Assembly: GCF_900156335.1 (NCBI RefSeq)
Contig: NZ_FTMZ01000001.1
Coordinates: 248,001-312,000 of the forward strand
Source: Sphaerotilus natans
Lineage (GTDB): Bacteria; Pseudomonadota; Gammaproteobacteria; Burkholderiales; Burkholderiaceae_C
Length of the DNA stretch: 64,000 bases
Direction of reading: 5' to 3'
Position numbers and translations under genes: made by a program. The notes under the pieces are model-generated. The model worked only from the letters and a program-made list of their open reading frames with translations, did not search any database and was not told the origin of the DNA. Shown piece after piece: positions 50,397-60,618 of this stretch; the first letter of the stretch is position 1, and the number at the start of each line of letters is the position of its first letter.

Positions 50397-51740
50397 ATGG
50401 TGTTCGACGCCCGTGCCGCGAAGATGCTTGCGCACGGAGAGCACATCGTAGTCCCGGAGTGTCCGGGTCTGCGACTGGTTGCGACTGAGAGTCGCAAGAG
50501 CTGGATCTACCGCTACCGCTCGCCTGAGGACGGGCGGATGCGGCAGATCAAGCTGGGCGAGTGGCCGGCAATGCCGATCGCACGCGCCATGGCACTGTGG
50601 GACGATGCCCGCCAGCAGCGCGAGGCAGGAATCGACCTGGCGAAGCGCCGCAAGGAGGCGCGCGCCCAAGAGAAGCTGGCTCGCCAGTCTGCCCGACAGC
50701 CTGGCACTCCTGCGCGGCCTGGCGTAGCTGTGACCGTGCTGGGACTGGCCTTGCAGTACGCCGAGCTGTACGCCAAGCCGCGGCGCAAGGAGAAGGGCTA
50801 CAAGGAGCTGGTCAGGCTCGTGAACAGCCTGCTTGGTGATGTCGGGATGCTTGAGCCGACCGAAGTCACTCGCGGCATTGCCTTCGATCTGATCGATCGG
50901 CACTCCAAGGAGCGGCCGGTGTTGGCCATGTCGCTGCGCCGCGAACTCGGGTCAACCTGGGAGTGGGCCATCGACAGCGGCAGGCTTCCCGAAGACACGC
51001 CGAACTGGTGGCGCATCGTCCTGAAAGGGAAGATCTCAAGCAAGGGCAGGGTGATCGACGGCGTGCACCAAGGCGCACCAGTGAAGCGGGCGCTTTCGTT
51101 CCGCGAGGTCGGGACCATCCTGCGCGAAATGCGATTCATCTCCCCAGTCATCCGCGACCTGCTGACGCTCTACCTGTGGACAGGGTGTCGGGGCGCAGAG
51201 ATCGTCCAGATGGAGGGCGCAGAGATCTCCCGCGATGAGCGCGGGGCGCTGTGGTGGGTCATCCCGCGGGCCAAGATCAAGATGGCCCGGAACCCGCTGG
51301 CGATGGACCTTCGCGTGCCGCTGATCGGGCGCGCGTGCGAAATCGTCGTGGCGCGCGTTGAGCAGTACGGGCAGGGCTACCTGTTCCCGGCCCGCCCAGG
51401 GGCTCGGATCGGGCACGTCGCCCAGAAGAACGTGGGTGTCGCGGTCTACAACCACGCCAAGCGCTGCAGGATCAGGCCTGAGCTGGAGCGCATGCGGTGG
51501 TCGGTTGACGACTGGGCGCCCCACGATCTCAGGCGCACCGTCCGGACCTGCCTGTCATCGATCGGATGCAGCAGTGATGTTGCAGAGGCGGTCCTTGGCC
51601 ACCTGCCCGGCGGTGATGAGGCGGTCTACGATCGGCACGACTACAGCGAGAGTCGTCGAGAGTGGCTCACCAAGCTCGTCGCCGAGTTCGAGCGGCACGA
51701 GGCAGACCCAGATGCCGTGATGGCGCGGCCTGCGGCCTGA
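50397..51740 (+). CDS. int: Tyrosine-recombinase integrase (P4-like)
   Basis: A 447-residue phage integrase. The N-terminal DUF4102-like arm-binding region has RLVATESRKSWIYRYRSPEDG and IKLGEWPAMPIARA. A core-binding SAM-like domain and the catalytic domain follow. Catalytic residues visible are Arg in WTGCRGAEIVQ (about residue 264), His-x-x-Arg in APHDLRRTVRT (about 377), His in LGHLPGG, and the nucleophile Tyr in VYDRHDY (about 416). A GGAGG ribosome site precedes the start. It lies next to the presumed left attachment site in mutS, as expected for an integrase. Confidence 0.96.
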   Translation: MVFDARAAKMLAHGEHIVVPECPGLRLVATESRKSWIYRYRSPEDGRMRQIKLGEWPAMPIARAMALWDDARQQREAGIDLAKRRKEARAQEKLARQSARQPGTPARPGVAVTVLGLALQYAELYAKPRRKEKGYKELVRLVNSLLGDVGMLEPTEVTRGIAFDLIDRHSKERPVLAMSLRRELGSTWEWAIDSGRLPEDTPNWWRIVLKGKISSKGRVIDGVHQGAPVKRALSFREVGTILREMRFISPVIRDLLTLYLWTGCRGAEIVQMEGAEISRDERGALWWVIPRAKIKMARNPLAMDLRVPLIGRACEIVVARVEQYGQGYLFPARPGARIGHVAQKNVGVAVYNHAKRCRIRPELERMRWSVDDWAPHDLRRTVRTCLSSIGCSSDVAEAVLGHLPGGDEAVYDRHDYSESRREWLTKLVAEFERHEADPDAVMARPAA

Positions 51741-51796: not shown

Positions 51797-53191
51797 TTAG
51801 CTGCGGGTCTGGTTCGCGGCCAGCCGCTCAATCTCGTCGGCACCAGAGATGACCGCCGAGTGCGCCATCGCCGCGAGGTCGTGCGTGATCCCGGCCGGCA
51901 TGTCGGGGCGCGTTGCAGCGGACAGCAGCGTCACAGCATCCCGCAGGTACCCCAGGGACAAGTTGATCGCCTCCCCATGGTTGATGCCCTTGGACGGCCG
52001 CGCAGCCGGGGGCAGCGCCACAGATGGCGGCGCTGCCGGTGCAGGGCTCGGCGGGTTCACTGCAGACTGCCCCCGACCCATCCAACGGTCAACGATCTCT
52101 GCACGGGCCTTGGTGTCGTAGCCCGCGAACAGGATCATGCACTCGCGCTGGGGCAGCCGGTAGATCTTGTGAACCTGGCTGTTCTCCGGGTAGTAGTGGG
52201 TGTCCTCGAATCTGGAGGGGGCCAGCGGCCCGTACAGCTCGATCAGCATCAGCCGGATGTCCCGCATGATGTAGTCGTGACGCTTGCCCGTCAGGTCGCG
52301 GATCTCCACGCTGGACATGGTGGCCTGGCCCGAGCCGAACACCTTGGACAGGGTGGCGATGTACTGCGTCGTGCCCTCAGGCGCCGGACTGGCCTGCATG
52401 ACGGCCTCGTGCGCCATCGCGGCATCCATGTCGCCGAACAACTTGTGGACCTGCGCCCCGAAGCGAAGGTCAATCCACGCCGCGTAGCGCAGGGCAACGA
52501 GACGGGAACCGTATGACCCGCCGGCTCGGCCCTGCTGAGTGTGAACTGCGCAGATCGCTTGGGGCTCACCACGCGCTCCGCGGTCCAGAGCCGCGACAAA
52601 CGCCTGAGTCTCTGCAGCACGAAGAAAGCTGCTGGGCCGGTGTGCCTCGGTGGCGCATCCGTCAGCCATGGCGACCTTGTGCAGGTCGTTCAGGGAGTAG
52701 CGGCCGTGCCCGTCCTGGCGGACGCTGATGCCAATGATCGTGATGGCCGGCGAATCGGCGTGCGCGGTGCGCTCCGATCCCTCCACCGTCTGTTCTGGCG
52801 GGACCAGCTGCAGGACGCCCTGTTCGGCCTCGGGCCGGCTCAGGCCGAAGTGACGCGCCAGCACCGCGTAGCACTCGCGCCTGTACCAGTTCATCCGCTC
52901 GCGCAGCTCTTCGCGAACACGGGCCACGTCCACGCCGAACAGCCAGCCGTTCAGGCGGTCGAGGGGAAGAAAAACAATCCTGCGAGTTTGGGCGTCACTG
53001 GGGAGCTGCGTGGTCATCATGACCACGCAGCTCATCAGCTCGGGGTCACGGTGAATGCGCTTGCGCTGACTGGGCCAGTCCAAGCCCAGCGCCTCGCAGA
53101 TGGGACGGATCGCCACGAAGGGCGCCCCGTTGACCAGGACGGCCGACAGGCTCATGTCGTGGAAGGGGATGGTCTGGATGACGCCGTTCAT
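51797..53191 (-). CDS. Phage antirepressor with P22_AR_N, KilA-N and pRha-like domains
   Basis: A 464-residue regulator that combines three antirepressor modules. Residues 1-125 are a P22 Ant N-terminal domain (FVAIRPICEALGLDWPSQRK, then LPLDRLNGWLFGVDVARVRE). Residues 150-245 are KilA-N-like (GRYSLNDLHKVAMADG and ALRYAAWIDLRFGAQVHKLF). Residues 285-375 resemble pRha (MSSVEIRDLTGKRHDYIMRD, KIYRLPQRECMILFAGYD). An antirepressor would inactivate the phage repressor and trigger induction. It is the distal gene of the C4 RNA-controlled transcript; its ATG overlaps the stop of the small upstream ORF (ATGA). Codons 75-108 are duplicated in inverted orientation at 53870-53970. Confidence 0.88.
   Translation of the reverse strand: MNGVIQTIPFHDMSLSAVLVNGAPFVAIRPICEALGLDWPSQRKRIHRDPELMSCVVMMTTQLPSDAQTRRIVFLPLDRLNGWLFGVDVARVREELRERMNWYRRECYAVLARHFGLSRPEAEQGVLQLVPPEQTVEGSERTAHADSPAITIIGISVRQDGHGRYSLNDLHKVAMADGCATEAHRPSSFLRAAETQAFVAALDRGARGEPQAICAVHTQQGRAGGSYGSRLVALRYAAWIDLRFGAQVHKLFGDMDAAMAHEAVMQASPAPEGTTQYIATLSKVFGSGQATMSSVEIRDLTGKRHDYIMRDIRLMLIELYGPLAPSRFEDTHYYPENSQVHKIYRLPQRECMILFAGYDTKARAEIVDRWMGRGQSAVNPPSPAPAAPPSVALPPAARPSKGINHGEAINLSLGYLRDAVTLLSAATRPDMPAGITHDLAAMAHSAVISGADEIERLAANQTRS
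52869..52969 (-). repeat. Left arm of a 101-bp inverted repeat (inside the antirepressor gene)
   Basis: This segment is the reverse complement of 53870-53970 with 6 mismatches in 101 positions; the first 54 bases of the repeat are identical. It encodes the end of the P22_AR_N domain (LPLDRLNGWLFGVDVARV). Confidence 0.9.
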
Positions 53192-53415: not shown

Positions 53416-53435
53416 GACGGTTCCATTTCTACGGG
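53416..53435 (-). promoter_or_regulatory. C4 RNA target site before the small ORF
   Basis: On the minus strand CCCGTAGAAATGGAACCGTC is complementary to the loop of the upstream RNA: GAAATGG, CCG and ACCG can pair with 53487-53512. It lies directly before the ATG at 53415, so pairing would also cover the ribosome-binding region. Confidence 0.6.
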
Positions 53436-53466
53436 TGTTGAACCTGCCGCCACTCACGCCAATGAG

Positions 53467-53542
53467 GGGCGGCAGACCGTGTGGGGTTGGCGTACCGGGA
53501 AATGGGACCGGCGCATCCGAAGATGCCCCCACACGGCCCGCC
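53467..53542 (-). ncRNA. C4-type antisense RNA controlling the antirepressor
   Basis: About 76 nt on the minus strand fold well. A perfect outer stem pairs CCGTGTGGGG (53536-53527) with CCCCACACGG (53486-53477), extended by GGCGG/CCGCC. Inside is a GCATC-TTCG-GATGC hairpin (53526-53513) with a UUCG tetraloop. The remaining loop (53512-53487) is complementary to an upstream site (53615-53639) and to a downstream site (53416-53435). Phage P1/P7 C4 RNA is a similar processed leader RNA of about 77 nt that pairs with its own operon mRNA and shuts down icd-ant. P4 CI RNA works alike. Exact ends are uncertain. Confidence 0.75.
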
Positions 53543-53584
53543 ATAGACGGAACCATGCAGCACAGCATCACGCCATCAGGACGT

Positions 53585-53608
53585 GAAAAAGCCGCGTCGG
53601 GCGCGGCT
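53585..53608 (-). terminator. Leader terminator upstream of the C4 RNA
   Basis: On the minus strand AGCCGCG-CCC-GACGCGGCT-like pairing (stem 53602-53607 with 53591-53596) is followed by TTTTTC. It stands between the promoter and the RNA/antirepressor genes, so most transcripts should stop here unless the structure is remodelled. Confidence 0.65.
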
Positions 53609-53614
53609 GCTGCG

Positions 53615-53639
53615 CCATTTCTACCGGGACGCCAATCCC
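53615..53639 (-). promoter_or_regulatory. Upstream C4 RNA pairing site
   Basis: This 25-nt segment is nearly the reverse complement of the C4 loop region 53483-53505; it differs at two positions and by a 2-nt bulge. It directly precedes the leader terminator, so C4 RNA binding here could favour termination. Confidence 0.6.
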
Positions 53640-53668
53640 GTATCACTGTTTTTTGCAGTGACGGCGAG

Positions 53669-53698
53669 AATTTAGCCCGATTGGCGCAGATGTGTCAA
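53669..53698 (-). promoter_or_regulatory. Promoter of the c4-icd-ant-like operon
   Basis: On the minus strand a consensus TTGACA (53693-53698) is followed after 18 bp by TAAATT (53669-53674). Transcription would start near 53660 and run through a short CACTG/CAGTG hairpin, the pairing site, the terminator and the C4 RNA. Confidence 0.65.
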
Positions 53699-53782: not shown

Positions 53783-53971
53783 TTGATCGTGATGCTGACG
53801 CCGGGCGGCATCATCGCGCGTGTCATGCACTCGACTGGCTCCGACGGCAAGCAGTACCGGATGCCGTGCCTTCCCCTCGACCGCCTGAACGGCTGGCTGT
53901 TCGGCGTGGACGTGGCCCGTGTTTGCGAAGAGCTGCGCGAGCGGCTGGTCTGGTGCCGGCGCGAGTGCTAG
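53783..53971 (+). pseudogene. Remnant of a second antirepressor gene (P22_AR_N fragment)
   Basis: The plus strand encodes TGSDGKQYRMPCLPLDRL and then NGWLFGVDVARVCEELRERL, clearly the end of a P22_AR_N domain and nearly the same as residues 75-108 of the antirepressor. The frame is cut by a stop at 53774 upstream and ends in a TAG created exactly where homology stops (53969-53971). The first 50 or so residues of the domain and everything downstream are missing. Confidence 0.75.
53870..53970 (+). repeat. Right arm of the 101-bp inverted repeat
   Basis: Inverted copy of 52869-52969, about 94 percent identical by direct count (6 mismatches). The arms flank about 900 bp with the antirepressor 5' part, the small ORF, the C4 RNA and its promoter. 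Confidence 0.9.
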
Positions 53972-59398: not shown

Positions 59399-60618
59399 GC
59401 ATTCGCGTCATGTCTCTGGTCTGGGATGGGATGGACGTTGGTGGTACAGAAATGCTCTGCCTTCTGGCGCTCGCCGACTGGTGTGATGACACGGGCGGCA
59501 GCTTGTTCCCGTCCATCAGGACAGTGGCGCTGAAGATCCGCTGTAGTGAAAAACAGGCGCGTCGGACGCTGCACAAGCTCGCCGAGCGAGGCCTCATCCA
59601 GTGCGTCAGCAGGGCGACGGGCGGCAGTGGCACGAGACGCTGGCGGTTGGATGTCGAGATGCTGCAGGGCATGGCTGCCCGCCGCCTGTCGGAGATCAAG
59701 CGGCCCACGGTCCATCAGCGCCCGGTCGATGATGACGCGGGCGAGACCGATGAATTCGACTCGACCTCGGACTTAGATGCCCTCGCCGGTGTCACCCCTC
59801 CCGTGGATGTCACCCCTCCCGCCGGTGTCACCCCTCCCGTGGATGTCACCCCTCCCGCCGGTGTCACCCCTCCCGTGGATGTCACCCCTCCCGCCGGTGT
59901 CACCCCTCCCATGGGTGTCCCTCTACCCCTCCCATGGATGTCCCTCTACCCCTCCCATGGATGTCCCTCTACCCCTCCCATGGGTGGGAGTCAATACACC
60001 ATATATCCACCATATATCCACCAGTTGAACCGTCAGCAGTACAGGCAACTTCAGAAAAACGATCCAGGGGTCAAGCCGGATCCCGAGGACAAAGCGGGTG
60101 CGCAGGACTCCAAGCCGGATCCAGAGGACAAGGCCAAGGACAAGGCCAAGGGCAAGACCAAGGCCAAGGCGAAGGCGAAGGACAAGCTGAATCCCGCCGA
60201 TCCGAAGGATGAGCCGCCGGCTCCGAAGGGCAAGGGCGTTGTCATCGACACGGACGGGTTGGTCGCAGACGGCGTTGATCGGCAGCAGGCCGCGGACTGG
60301 CTGATGCTGAGGGCCACTCGCAGACTGCCGCTCACTGCATCGGCATGGAACTCGATCAAGGCAGATGGCGCAAAGCTGGGCATGGATGCTGGGCAGGTCG
60401 TCCGAGAGTGCAACTCGCGCTCCTGGTGCGGGTTCAAGGCCTCATGGATCGAACGTGAAAGACGTGAAGACCCTGTGCGGCCCGAGGGGCGCCGCGGTGC
60501 TGGTGGCAGCGTGGATCGCCGTGCTGAGCTGATGGCGAAGCTGTCCGGCTCCGTGCCGGCCAAGCACATGGGCGATGTGATTGAGGGGGAAGCGCGAGAT
60601 GGAGGCCTCTGTGACTGA
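59395..60618 (+). CDS. Phage replication-type winged-helix protein with repeat region
   Basis: A 407-residue protein. Residues 1-75 form an HTH_36-type winged helix (MLCLLALADWCDD, FPSIRTVALKIRCSEKQARR). Residues 131-200 come from tandem DNA repeats (GVTPPVDVTPPA units, then a Pro/Leu/Ser stretch). A Lys/Ala-rich segment with Asp follows, and then a conserved C-terminal domain (ADWLMLRATRRLPLTASAW and AGQVVRECNSRSWCGFKASWI). That domain resembles the helicase-loading end of phage O-like replication proteins. It overlaps both neighbours. The repeat includes a 23-bp unit that is not a multiple of three. Confidence 0.8.
   Translation: MSIRVMSLVWDGMDVGGTEMLCLLALADWCDDTGGSLFPSIRTVALKIRCSEKQARRTLHKLAERGLIQCVSRATGGSGTRRWRLDVEMLQGMAARRLSEIKRPTVHQRPVDDDAGETDEFDSTSDLDALAGVTPPVDVTPPAGVTPPVDVTPPAGVTPPVDVTPPAGVTPPMGVPLPLPWMSLYPSHGCPSTPPMGGSQYTIYPPYIHQLNRQQYRQLQKNDPGVKPDPEDKAGAQDSKPDPEDKAKDKAKGKTKAKAKAKDKLNPADPKDEPPAPKGKGVVIDTDGLVADGVDRQQAADWLMLRATRRLPLTASAWNSIKADGAKLGMDAGQVVRECNSRSWCGFKASWIERERREDPVRPEGRRGAGGSVDRRAELMAKLSGSVPAKHMGDVIEGEARDGGLCD
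59785..59910 (+). repeat. Seven 18-bp tandem repeats inside the replication gene
   Basis: Alternating units GCCGGTGTCACCCCTCCC and GTGGATGTCACCCCTCCC, seven in total with no other variation. Each adds six residues (AGVTPP or VDVTPP) in frame. Confidence 0.95.
59911..59979 (+). repeat. Three 23-bp tandem repeats that read in three frames
   Basis: Units at 59911-59933, 59934-59956 and 59957-59979 differ by at most one base. They look like the 18-bp unit with a 5-base insertion (CCTCT). Because 23 is not a multiple of 3, consecutive units are read in different frames; only three (or 3n) copies keep the gene open. Confidence 0.95.

Follow-up and report, generated by a model that had tools for sequence, protein, structure and literature searches.

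The leader studied here precedes a phage antirepressor gene of Sphaerotilus natans, and it raises the question of whether an RNA cut from the operon's own transcript keeps that gene off. The first-pass annotation of the sequence had proposed such a circuit, following the c4-icd-ant logic of phages P1 and P7. In the window, by which we mean the whole 64-kb stretch of DNA analysed, the leader runs from 53698 to 53416 on the minus strand, and its elements follow in the order promoter, 5′ hairpin, a1 in a hairpin loop, b1, terminator, C4, a2 and b2 (Table 1).

The C4 RNA and the operon it precedes

We confirmed that the locus is a C4 antisense RNA, a real member of a known family. The first-pass annotation had suggested a covariance search and RNA folding as checks, and both agreed with a C4 RNA. 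The Rfam C4 model (RF01695) matched in cmscan with 79.5 bits against a gathering threshold of 45 (E 6e-14), the sole Rfam match at gathering level in the window, and the predicted fold reached −48.2 kcal/mol (z −3.88), with none of 200 shuffles equally good. The foldable RNA that had been described was thus present with its UUCG inner hairpin, and its outer stem was corrected from 10 to 16 pairs. Two further models matched the leader below their gathering thresholds, namely isrK (RF01394; 53662-53585, minus strand; 42.4 bits against 50), which makes the leader isrK-like only, and c4-a1b1 (RF03163; 53675-53621, minus strand; 40.3 bits against 46.7), for which the a1 and b1 pairing itself is present.

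Table 1. Features of the C4 locus in the window and a nearby gene
Feature	Position	Strand	Remarks
Sigma-70-like promoter	53669..53698	-	TTGACA 53698-53693, TAAATT 53674-53669
5′ hairpin of leader	53642..53662	-	First hairpin in both the isrK and the c4-a1b1 model, each matched below gathering
Hairpin with a1 in loop	53625..53640	-	a1 = TTGGCGT, 53635-53629
C4 target site b1 (GAAATGG)	53615..53621	-	Complement of C4 loop b′
Proposed antiterminator hairpin GGCGC(7)GCGCC	53600..53616	-	Sequence and folding
Intrinsic terminator AGCCGCG(5)CGCGGCT + TTTT	53586..53608	-	Custom rule; hairpin itself 53608-53590
C4 antisense RNA (Rfam match)	53465..53548	-	Paired core 53542-53471
C4 loop b′ CCATTTC	53505-53499	-	Within C4
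C4 segment a′ ACGCCAA	53493-53487	-	Within C4
Possible a2 hairpin	53444..53475	-	C4 3′ strand 53475-53468 pairs with 53451-53444, a2 in loop
C4 target site a2 (TTGGCGT)	53456..53462	-	Pairing with C4, co-variation
C4 target site b2 (GAAATGG)	53423..53429	-	Directly before first start codon; pairing, co-variation
Leader ORF, 75 aa	53188..53415	-	Open reading frame
Antirepressor ant, 464 aa	51797..53191	-	P22_AR_N, KilA-N and Phage_pRha domains
Tyrosine integrase	50397-51740		Near ant

The flanking signals named in the first-pass annotation were also recovered. The TTGACA/TAAATT promoter matches 10 of 12 consensus positions with a spacer of 18, and between 53300 and 54300 there was one promoter-like site, where shuffled sequences had 0.2 on average; transcription would start near 53662. 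The terminator hairpin with its TTTT tract was detected by a separate custom rule only, the consensus scan having left it out of its output. Downstream, the stop of the leader ORF overlaps the start of ant as ATGA, and ant carries the P22-type domain, just as had been claimed.

In P1 the order is likewise promoter, a1, b1, C4, a2, b2, a small ORF and ant with an overlapping start; the C4 model matched there as well, and the custom rule found an antiterminator/terminator pair. Unlike in P1, the small ORF of the window is not similar to Icd (13 aligned residues, E 0.45, so that homology was rejected), and ant combines P22_AR_N, KilA-N and Rha domains. At the thresholds applied, neither Pfam nor PHROG matched the leader ORF, which resembles Icd in its position only, and no relatives of ant were confirmed in the scan of the genome collection. 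Of the proposed P1/P7 logic, the C4 match, the co-varying sites described below and the overlap of ant with a small ORF hold, while the likeness of that ORF to Icd does not. The loops of the window C4 differ from those of P1, so their specificity should differ too.

Altogether, these results support the interpretation of the first-pass annotation, and it is very likely that the locus forms a C4 antisense circuit that controls a prophage antirepressor operon, in which C4 probably keeps its own antirepressor gene off. This would extend the immunity logic of P1 to a Burkholderiales prophage with a different antirepressor. In the passages of PMC5320573 used here, RNase P is described as processing the operon transcript to a C4 RNA of about 77 nt. 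The group 1 sRNAs of Acinetobacter baumannii share the C4 fold with the window and show apparent processing starting at GG; they occur in many copies with, according to the authors, other targets (PMC5320573, same passages), whereas the window copy has clear cognate sites.

Target sites across C4 relatives

The loops of the window C4 pair over 7 + 7 nt with a1/b1 and again over 7 + 7 nt with a2/b2. Dinucleotide shuffles scored as high in 10 of 2000 cases for a1/b1 and in 13 of 2000 for a2/b2. Given that these values are unusual and not extreme, it is the comparison with relatives that settles the target sites.

In genome samples that partly overlap, the share of genomes with C4 at E ≤ 0.001 was 29/200 for the host's family, 24/369 for a class sample, 62/398 for a phylum sample, and 32/147 and 3/24 for two further families. 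The best matches listed per search, at most 30 each and thus not all matches, gave 122 C4 loci, P1 and Gifsy-1 included. Two loci without flanks and four with loops identical to another's were removed, which left 116; in 13 loci the borders of the loops were placed manually.

The loops of other loci equalled the window's own at each site in 1 of 58 cases in a first set and in 0 of 115 in the full set. Across the 116 loci, own loops scored on average 36.70 against own a1/b1 and 26.05 when permuted (z 39.3), and 36.20 against own a2/b2 and 25.52 when permuted (z 34.2). The 10,000 permutations, which leave relatedness among the loci in, reached maxima of 27.06 upstream and 26.65 downstream. Target sites and C4 loops change together across many loop sequences, which bears out the earlier claim that the RNA loop is complementary to one site before the terminator and to another before the first start codon. 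The same scoring rule, which allowed a gap between −1 and 15 for the upstream pair and between 10 and 40 for the downstream pair, recovered the annotated a1, b1, a2 and b2 of P1. When this tight gap rule was lifted, most loci had 5-10 nt between a1 and b1 and most had 20-30 nt between a2 and b2, although there were exceptions.

A possible hairpin around a2 is incompatible with part of the C4 outer stem. Its arms co-vary (swap z 9.6, n = 83 loci), and in P1 it is weak, the arms of 44 other loci doing equally well. The host genome carries three C4 copies with different loops (L001, L002 and L003), which scored 34-36.5 on their own sites and 21.5-27 on each other's; without cross-fit, these copies should not cross-regulate.

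The two pairs of sites were not kept to the same degree. Both ranked at 5 or better in 80 of the 116 loci, a1/b1 only in 24, the downstream pair only in 1 and neither in 2, the remaining 9 being intermediates between thresholds. The 24 loci, called a1/b1-only in the sense that no downstream site appeared under the scoring used, showed an upstream fit of z 15.2 and no downstream fit (z −1.8), even with 300 nt downstream and gaps of 0-60; in at least one of them, L112, an a2 match and an imperfect b2 are visible by eye. Having C4 and a good site in the leader alone seems to be a stable condition, and since 20 of the 24 loci belong to one host family, it may go back to one event.

These counts bear on the classical account of P1. 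In P1, mRNA left untranslated after the C4 translation block is ended by Rho. On a purely classical reading, C4 at a2/b2 blocks translation, Rho ends the mRNA and a1/b1 has no role of its own. The P1 record, in which a2/b2 is labelled as the site of repression and a1/b1 are called 'putative' target sites, agrees with this, as does the finished window terminator, whose formation is independent of C4 in the folding model below. We nevertheless regard this reading as unlikely, because a1/b1 is no less well preserved than a2/b2 (rank above 10 in 4 of 116 loci upstream and in 27 of 116 downstream) and a1/b1 stands alone in the 24 loci, even if 20 of these come from one host family. In our view the comparison matters more than the single locus, in that it reveals loci where a1/b1 are the only good sites and gives these 'putative' sites a testable job.

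Proposed leader attenuation and the IsrK RNA of Gifsy-1

We propose that transcripts from the one promoter would pass through the leader with a1 and b1 and then reach the intrinsic terminator, and that those reading through would carry C4, a2/b2, the leader ORF and ant. C4 would be released from the transcript by processing, as suggested by P1 and Acinetobacter, and the freed RNA would pair with a2/b2, covering the start region of the leader ORF and blocking both this ORF and the coupled ant. C4 would also pair with a1/b1 of nascent transcripts, prevent an antiterminator and drive the leader into the terminator, thereby limiting its own synthesis and ant and keeping the prophage silent. The short terminated leader bears a1/b1 and could in turn soak up C4.

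The antiterminator of which b1 may be a part goes beyond the interpretation of the first-pass annotation. We found that a short arm at the b1 end (GGCGC in the window) is complementary to the 5′ half of the terminator; in the proposed hairpin, the 5′ arm has GG in common with b1, and 3 nt of the 3′ arm also belong to the 5′ arm of the terminator. The terminator was detected and a1/b1 was good in 92 loci, of which 77 have a stem of 4 or more pairs that overlaps the terminator arm and 74 one of 5 or more pairs (L010 and L034 scored as misses, L021 dropped for its poor a1/b1 rank). In a scan of offsets from the b1 end, −2 stood out, with 79% of the 89 loci scoring at least 12 there and 0-27% elsewhere, and swapping the arms between loci gave z 7.5 (n = 80), or 5.6 for the 30 loci without GGCGC (L010, L021 and L034 being excluded by hand from the offset and arm-swap analysis). 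The pair types at this offset were G-C in 66, A-U in 6, C-G in 2 and U-A in 1, indicating that both sides vary. By the custom rules, the antiterminator was missing in 15 of the 92 loci, Gifsy-1 among them, and the terminator in 23 of the 122, including L003 of the host genome.

Given that the last bases of b1 start the proposed antiterminator hairpin, which excludes the terminator, C4 binding should favour termination. Folding models, restricted to loci possessing the antiterminator stem, pointed the same way. In 77 stem-bearing loci, occupying a1-b1 raised the predicted mean probability of the full-length terminator from 0.60 to 0.99. Occupying just the final 5 nt of b1 gave 0.97, and occupying everything except these gave 0.54. 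Among 81 loci modelled, occupation raised the full-length terminator by more than 0.2 in 41 and not in 40; with the 3′ arm of the terminator half transcribed, 58 loci rose by this margin. Falls of more than 0.2 occurred in no locus at full length and in one at the half stage. The modelled value for P1 rose from 0.60 to 1.0. The finished terminators of the window and of Gifsy-1 were predicted at 1.0 with or without C4, and at the half stage they rose from 0.03 to 0.89 and from 0.60 to 0.98, respectively. Co-variation and modelling suggest that attenuation is fairly well supported for the group and less so for the window copy, and we consider it somewhat probable that C4 at a1/b1 pushes the leader into the terminator. 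The CI RNA of phage P4 with seqA/seqC is comparable by its description in the passages of PMC4825925 used here, being an antisense RNA that is processed from its own transcript, with sites on both sides and a termination outcome.

In the Gifsy-1 record, the C4 (69 bits), isrK (79.3) and c4-a1b1 (48.1) models match side by side, all over gathering. Judged from its sequence, the isrK-orf45 region is a C4 locus. As in the window, the order is leader, terminator, C4, a2 and b2, the window leader matching isrK below gathering. Unlike in the window, b2 lies directly before anrP and orf45 runs over C4, where the window has a separate 75-aa ORF after b2, and the custom rule finds no overlapping antiterminator, of which the window has one. 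All 12 checked nucleotides named in the passages of PMC4825925 that we used agree with the record (isrK nucleotide 1 = 1). In that numbering, G28 and G31 fall within a1, and C159 and C162 within a′, which makes both published pairs, G28-C162 and G31-C159, pairings between a1 and a′. The 5′ strand of C4 contains A107 and the second AUG, and C18 belongs to the 5′ hairpin of the leader. G114-C175 is a C4 outer-stem pair, which structure B of that paper therefore has in common with the C4 fold.

The published model is one of refolding in cis, in which the short leader RNA frees its own mRNA from an inactive fold and thereby allows the ORF over C4 to be translated into the antirepressor. It rests on reporter, gel and ribosome-footprint work in Salmonella (PMC4825925, as used here), including the compensatory C18U/G173A, outside a1, with an activity of 341 with wild-type IsrK and 576 with C18U; this shows IsrK pairing beyond a1, which may extend the same duplex and also suits the authors' model. 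In the window, too, an open frame spans C4, where it shares the reading frame of the leader ORF. We rejected such an ORF as a general coding feature, since among 91 loci with an ATG there its end overlaps the next ATG in 10 and it shares the frame of that ATG in 16, and in P1 it has 14 codons. Basal activity in the same passages was 4 for the wild type, 93 and 218 for a1 mutants and 484 and 926 for a′ mutants; the doubles fell to 224 and 327 and did not return to 4, as expected with a2 still mismatched. The doubles restore a1:a′ and not a2:a′, so their staying far above the wild type agrees with the C4 reading. We judge refolding in cis quite improbable as the explanation of the window locus.

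IsrK would instead act as a decoy for C4. In the passages used, IsrK supplied in trans increased the activity of a transcription fusion 8-fold and that of a translation fusion 139-fold, as would be expected from C4 titration, and added only 2-3-fold on a′ mutants (PMC4825925). Three further observations sit less easily with this (same source): mutations of the G114/C175 stem pair had only mild effects, which does not favour the C4 reading; a short processed species was reported from the orf45 plasmid too, which the C4 reading does not explain; and co-expressed orf45 RNA failed to relieve IsrK toxicity, which does not favour the decoy view. The co-expression plasmid starts at the second ATG and thus lacks the 5′ strand of the C4 stem, and the orf45 piece on it does not fold as C4.

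Decoy action might also be the main function of the terminated leader, the antiterminator hairpin being merely structural. The predicted pairing of the C4 loop arm, with the opening cost of C4 ignored, is stronger at a1/b1 (−37.3 kcal/mol) than at a2/b2 (−26.9 kcal/mol), and the fusion data above point in this direction; the co-varying antiterminator arm at the b1 end argues against it, as does the co-expression result, with the plasmid's truncation in mind. This reading seems possible and rather doubtful.

We consider about as likely as not the broader proposal that C4 RNAs in general regulate an attenuator of a1/b1 and antiterminator, that the a2/b2 block is a dispensable second arm, and that the terminated leader, IsrK in Gifsy-1, is a C4 decoy switching the antirepressor on, so that the two named systems would be one. 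It would give one reading for IsrK, STnc1160 and C4, with predictions that differ from those of the published cis-refolding model. The authors of PMC4825925, in the passages used, weighed the possibility that STnc1160 is a termination factor of the P4 CI kind, and a text search of that paper gave no match for 'C4 RNA' or 'C4 antisense'. In the cited parts of two other sources, C4 and isrK stand in adjacent rows for Xylella, without comment (PMC12189769), and c4-a1b1 is listed as a motif (PMC2864571). Among the papers listed in literature searches, none gave a C4 antiterminator or joined IsrK with C4. The attenuator role of a1/b1 and the unifying reading of IsrK, which we infer from sequence together with published data, would be what this analysis adds.

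Neighbours of C4 and the surrounding prophage

C4 copies can lie in runs, with four within 1.4 kb (G458:C9:1700-3092) and three within 1.5 kb (G607:C237:13851-15365), and the C4-rich genomes G969, G995 and G038 have 19, 16 and 12 matches. Proteins downstream, picked by a crude longest-ORF choice with 11 of the 122 loci left out, included the antirepressor families Bro-N (7/91), AntA (5/91) and Rha (3/91), and also Toprim (3/91 and 1/20 in alignments A1 and A2). Single loci precede VapE-like or Derepression-family proteins; together with Toprim, these neighbours may point to satellites. A T-loop-like motif, GGTTCRA, was seen by eye between a2 and b2 in several loci of the host's family.

The surroundings of the window locus are those of a prophage, which we take to adjoin mutS. 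Among the best 80 of 571 MutS relatives listed, those at the top were mostly 69-73% identical and belonged to Aquabacterium, Rhizobacter, Ideonella, Roseateles and Rubrivivax, a circle of Burkholderiales in which the host probably belongs. In addition to the integrase, RdgC, a Bet/RecT-like annealing protein, an O-like replication protein and a weak repressor match lie nearby. An inverted partial copy of ant upstream of the locus could indicate a decayed, silent relic, which is very improbable given that the promoter, the four target sites, the C4 fold, the terminator and an uninterrupted 464-aa ant have all been kept.

The C4 leader is flanked by a 101-nt inverted repeat (52869-52969 and 53870-53970, 94% identical), and the right arm of this repeat falls within a 59-aa ORF on the plus strand (53792-53971) with a match to the C-terminal half of P22_AR_N. 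Recombination at the repeat would invert the promoter-C4 cassette, and read-through from upstream would run antisense to ant. As a shared invertible switch the repeat was rejected, being found in 1 of the 122 loci (flanks up to 1.5 kb). Within the O-like replication gene, two 64-bp direct repeats (59784-59919, 97% identical) encode a VTPPVDVTPPAG-type repeat.
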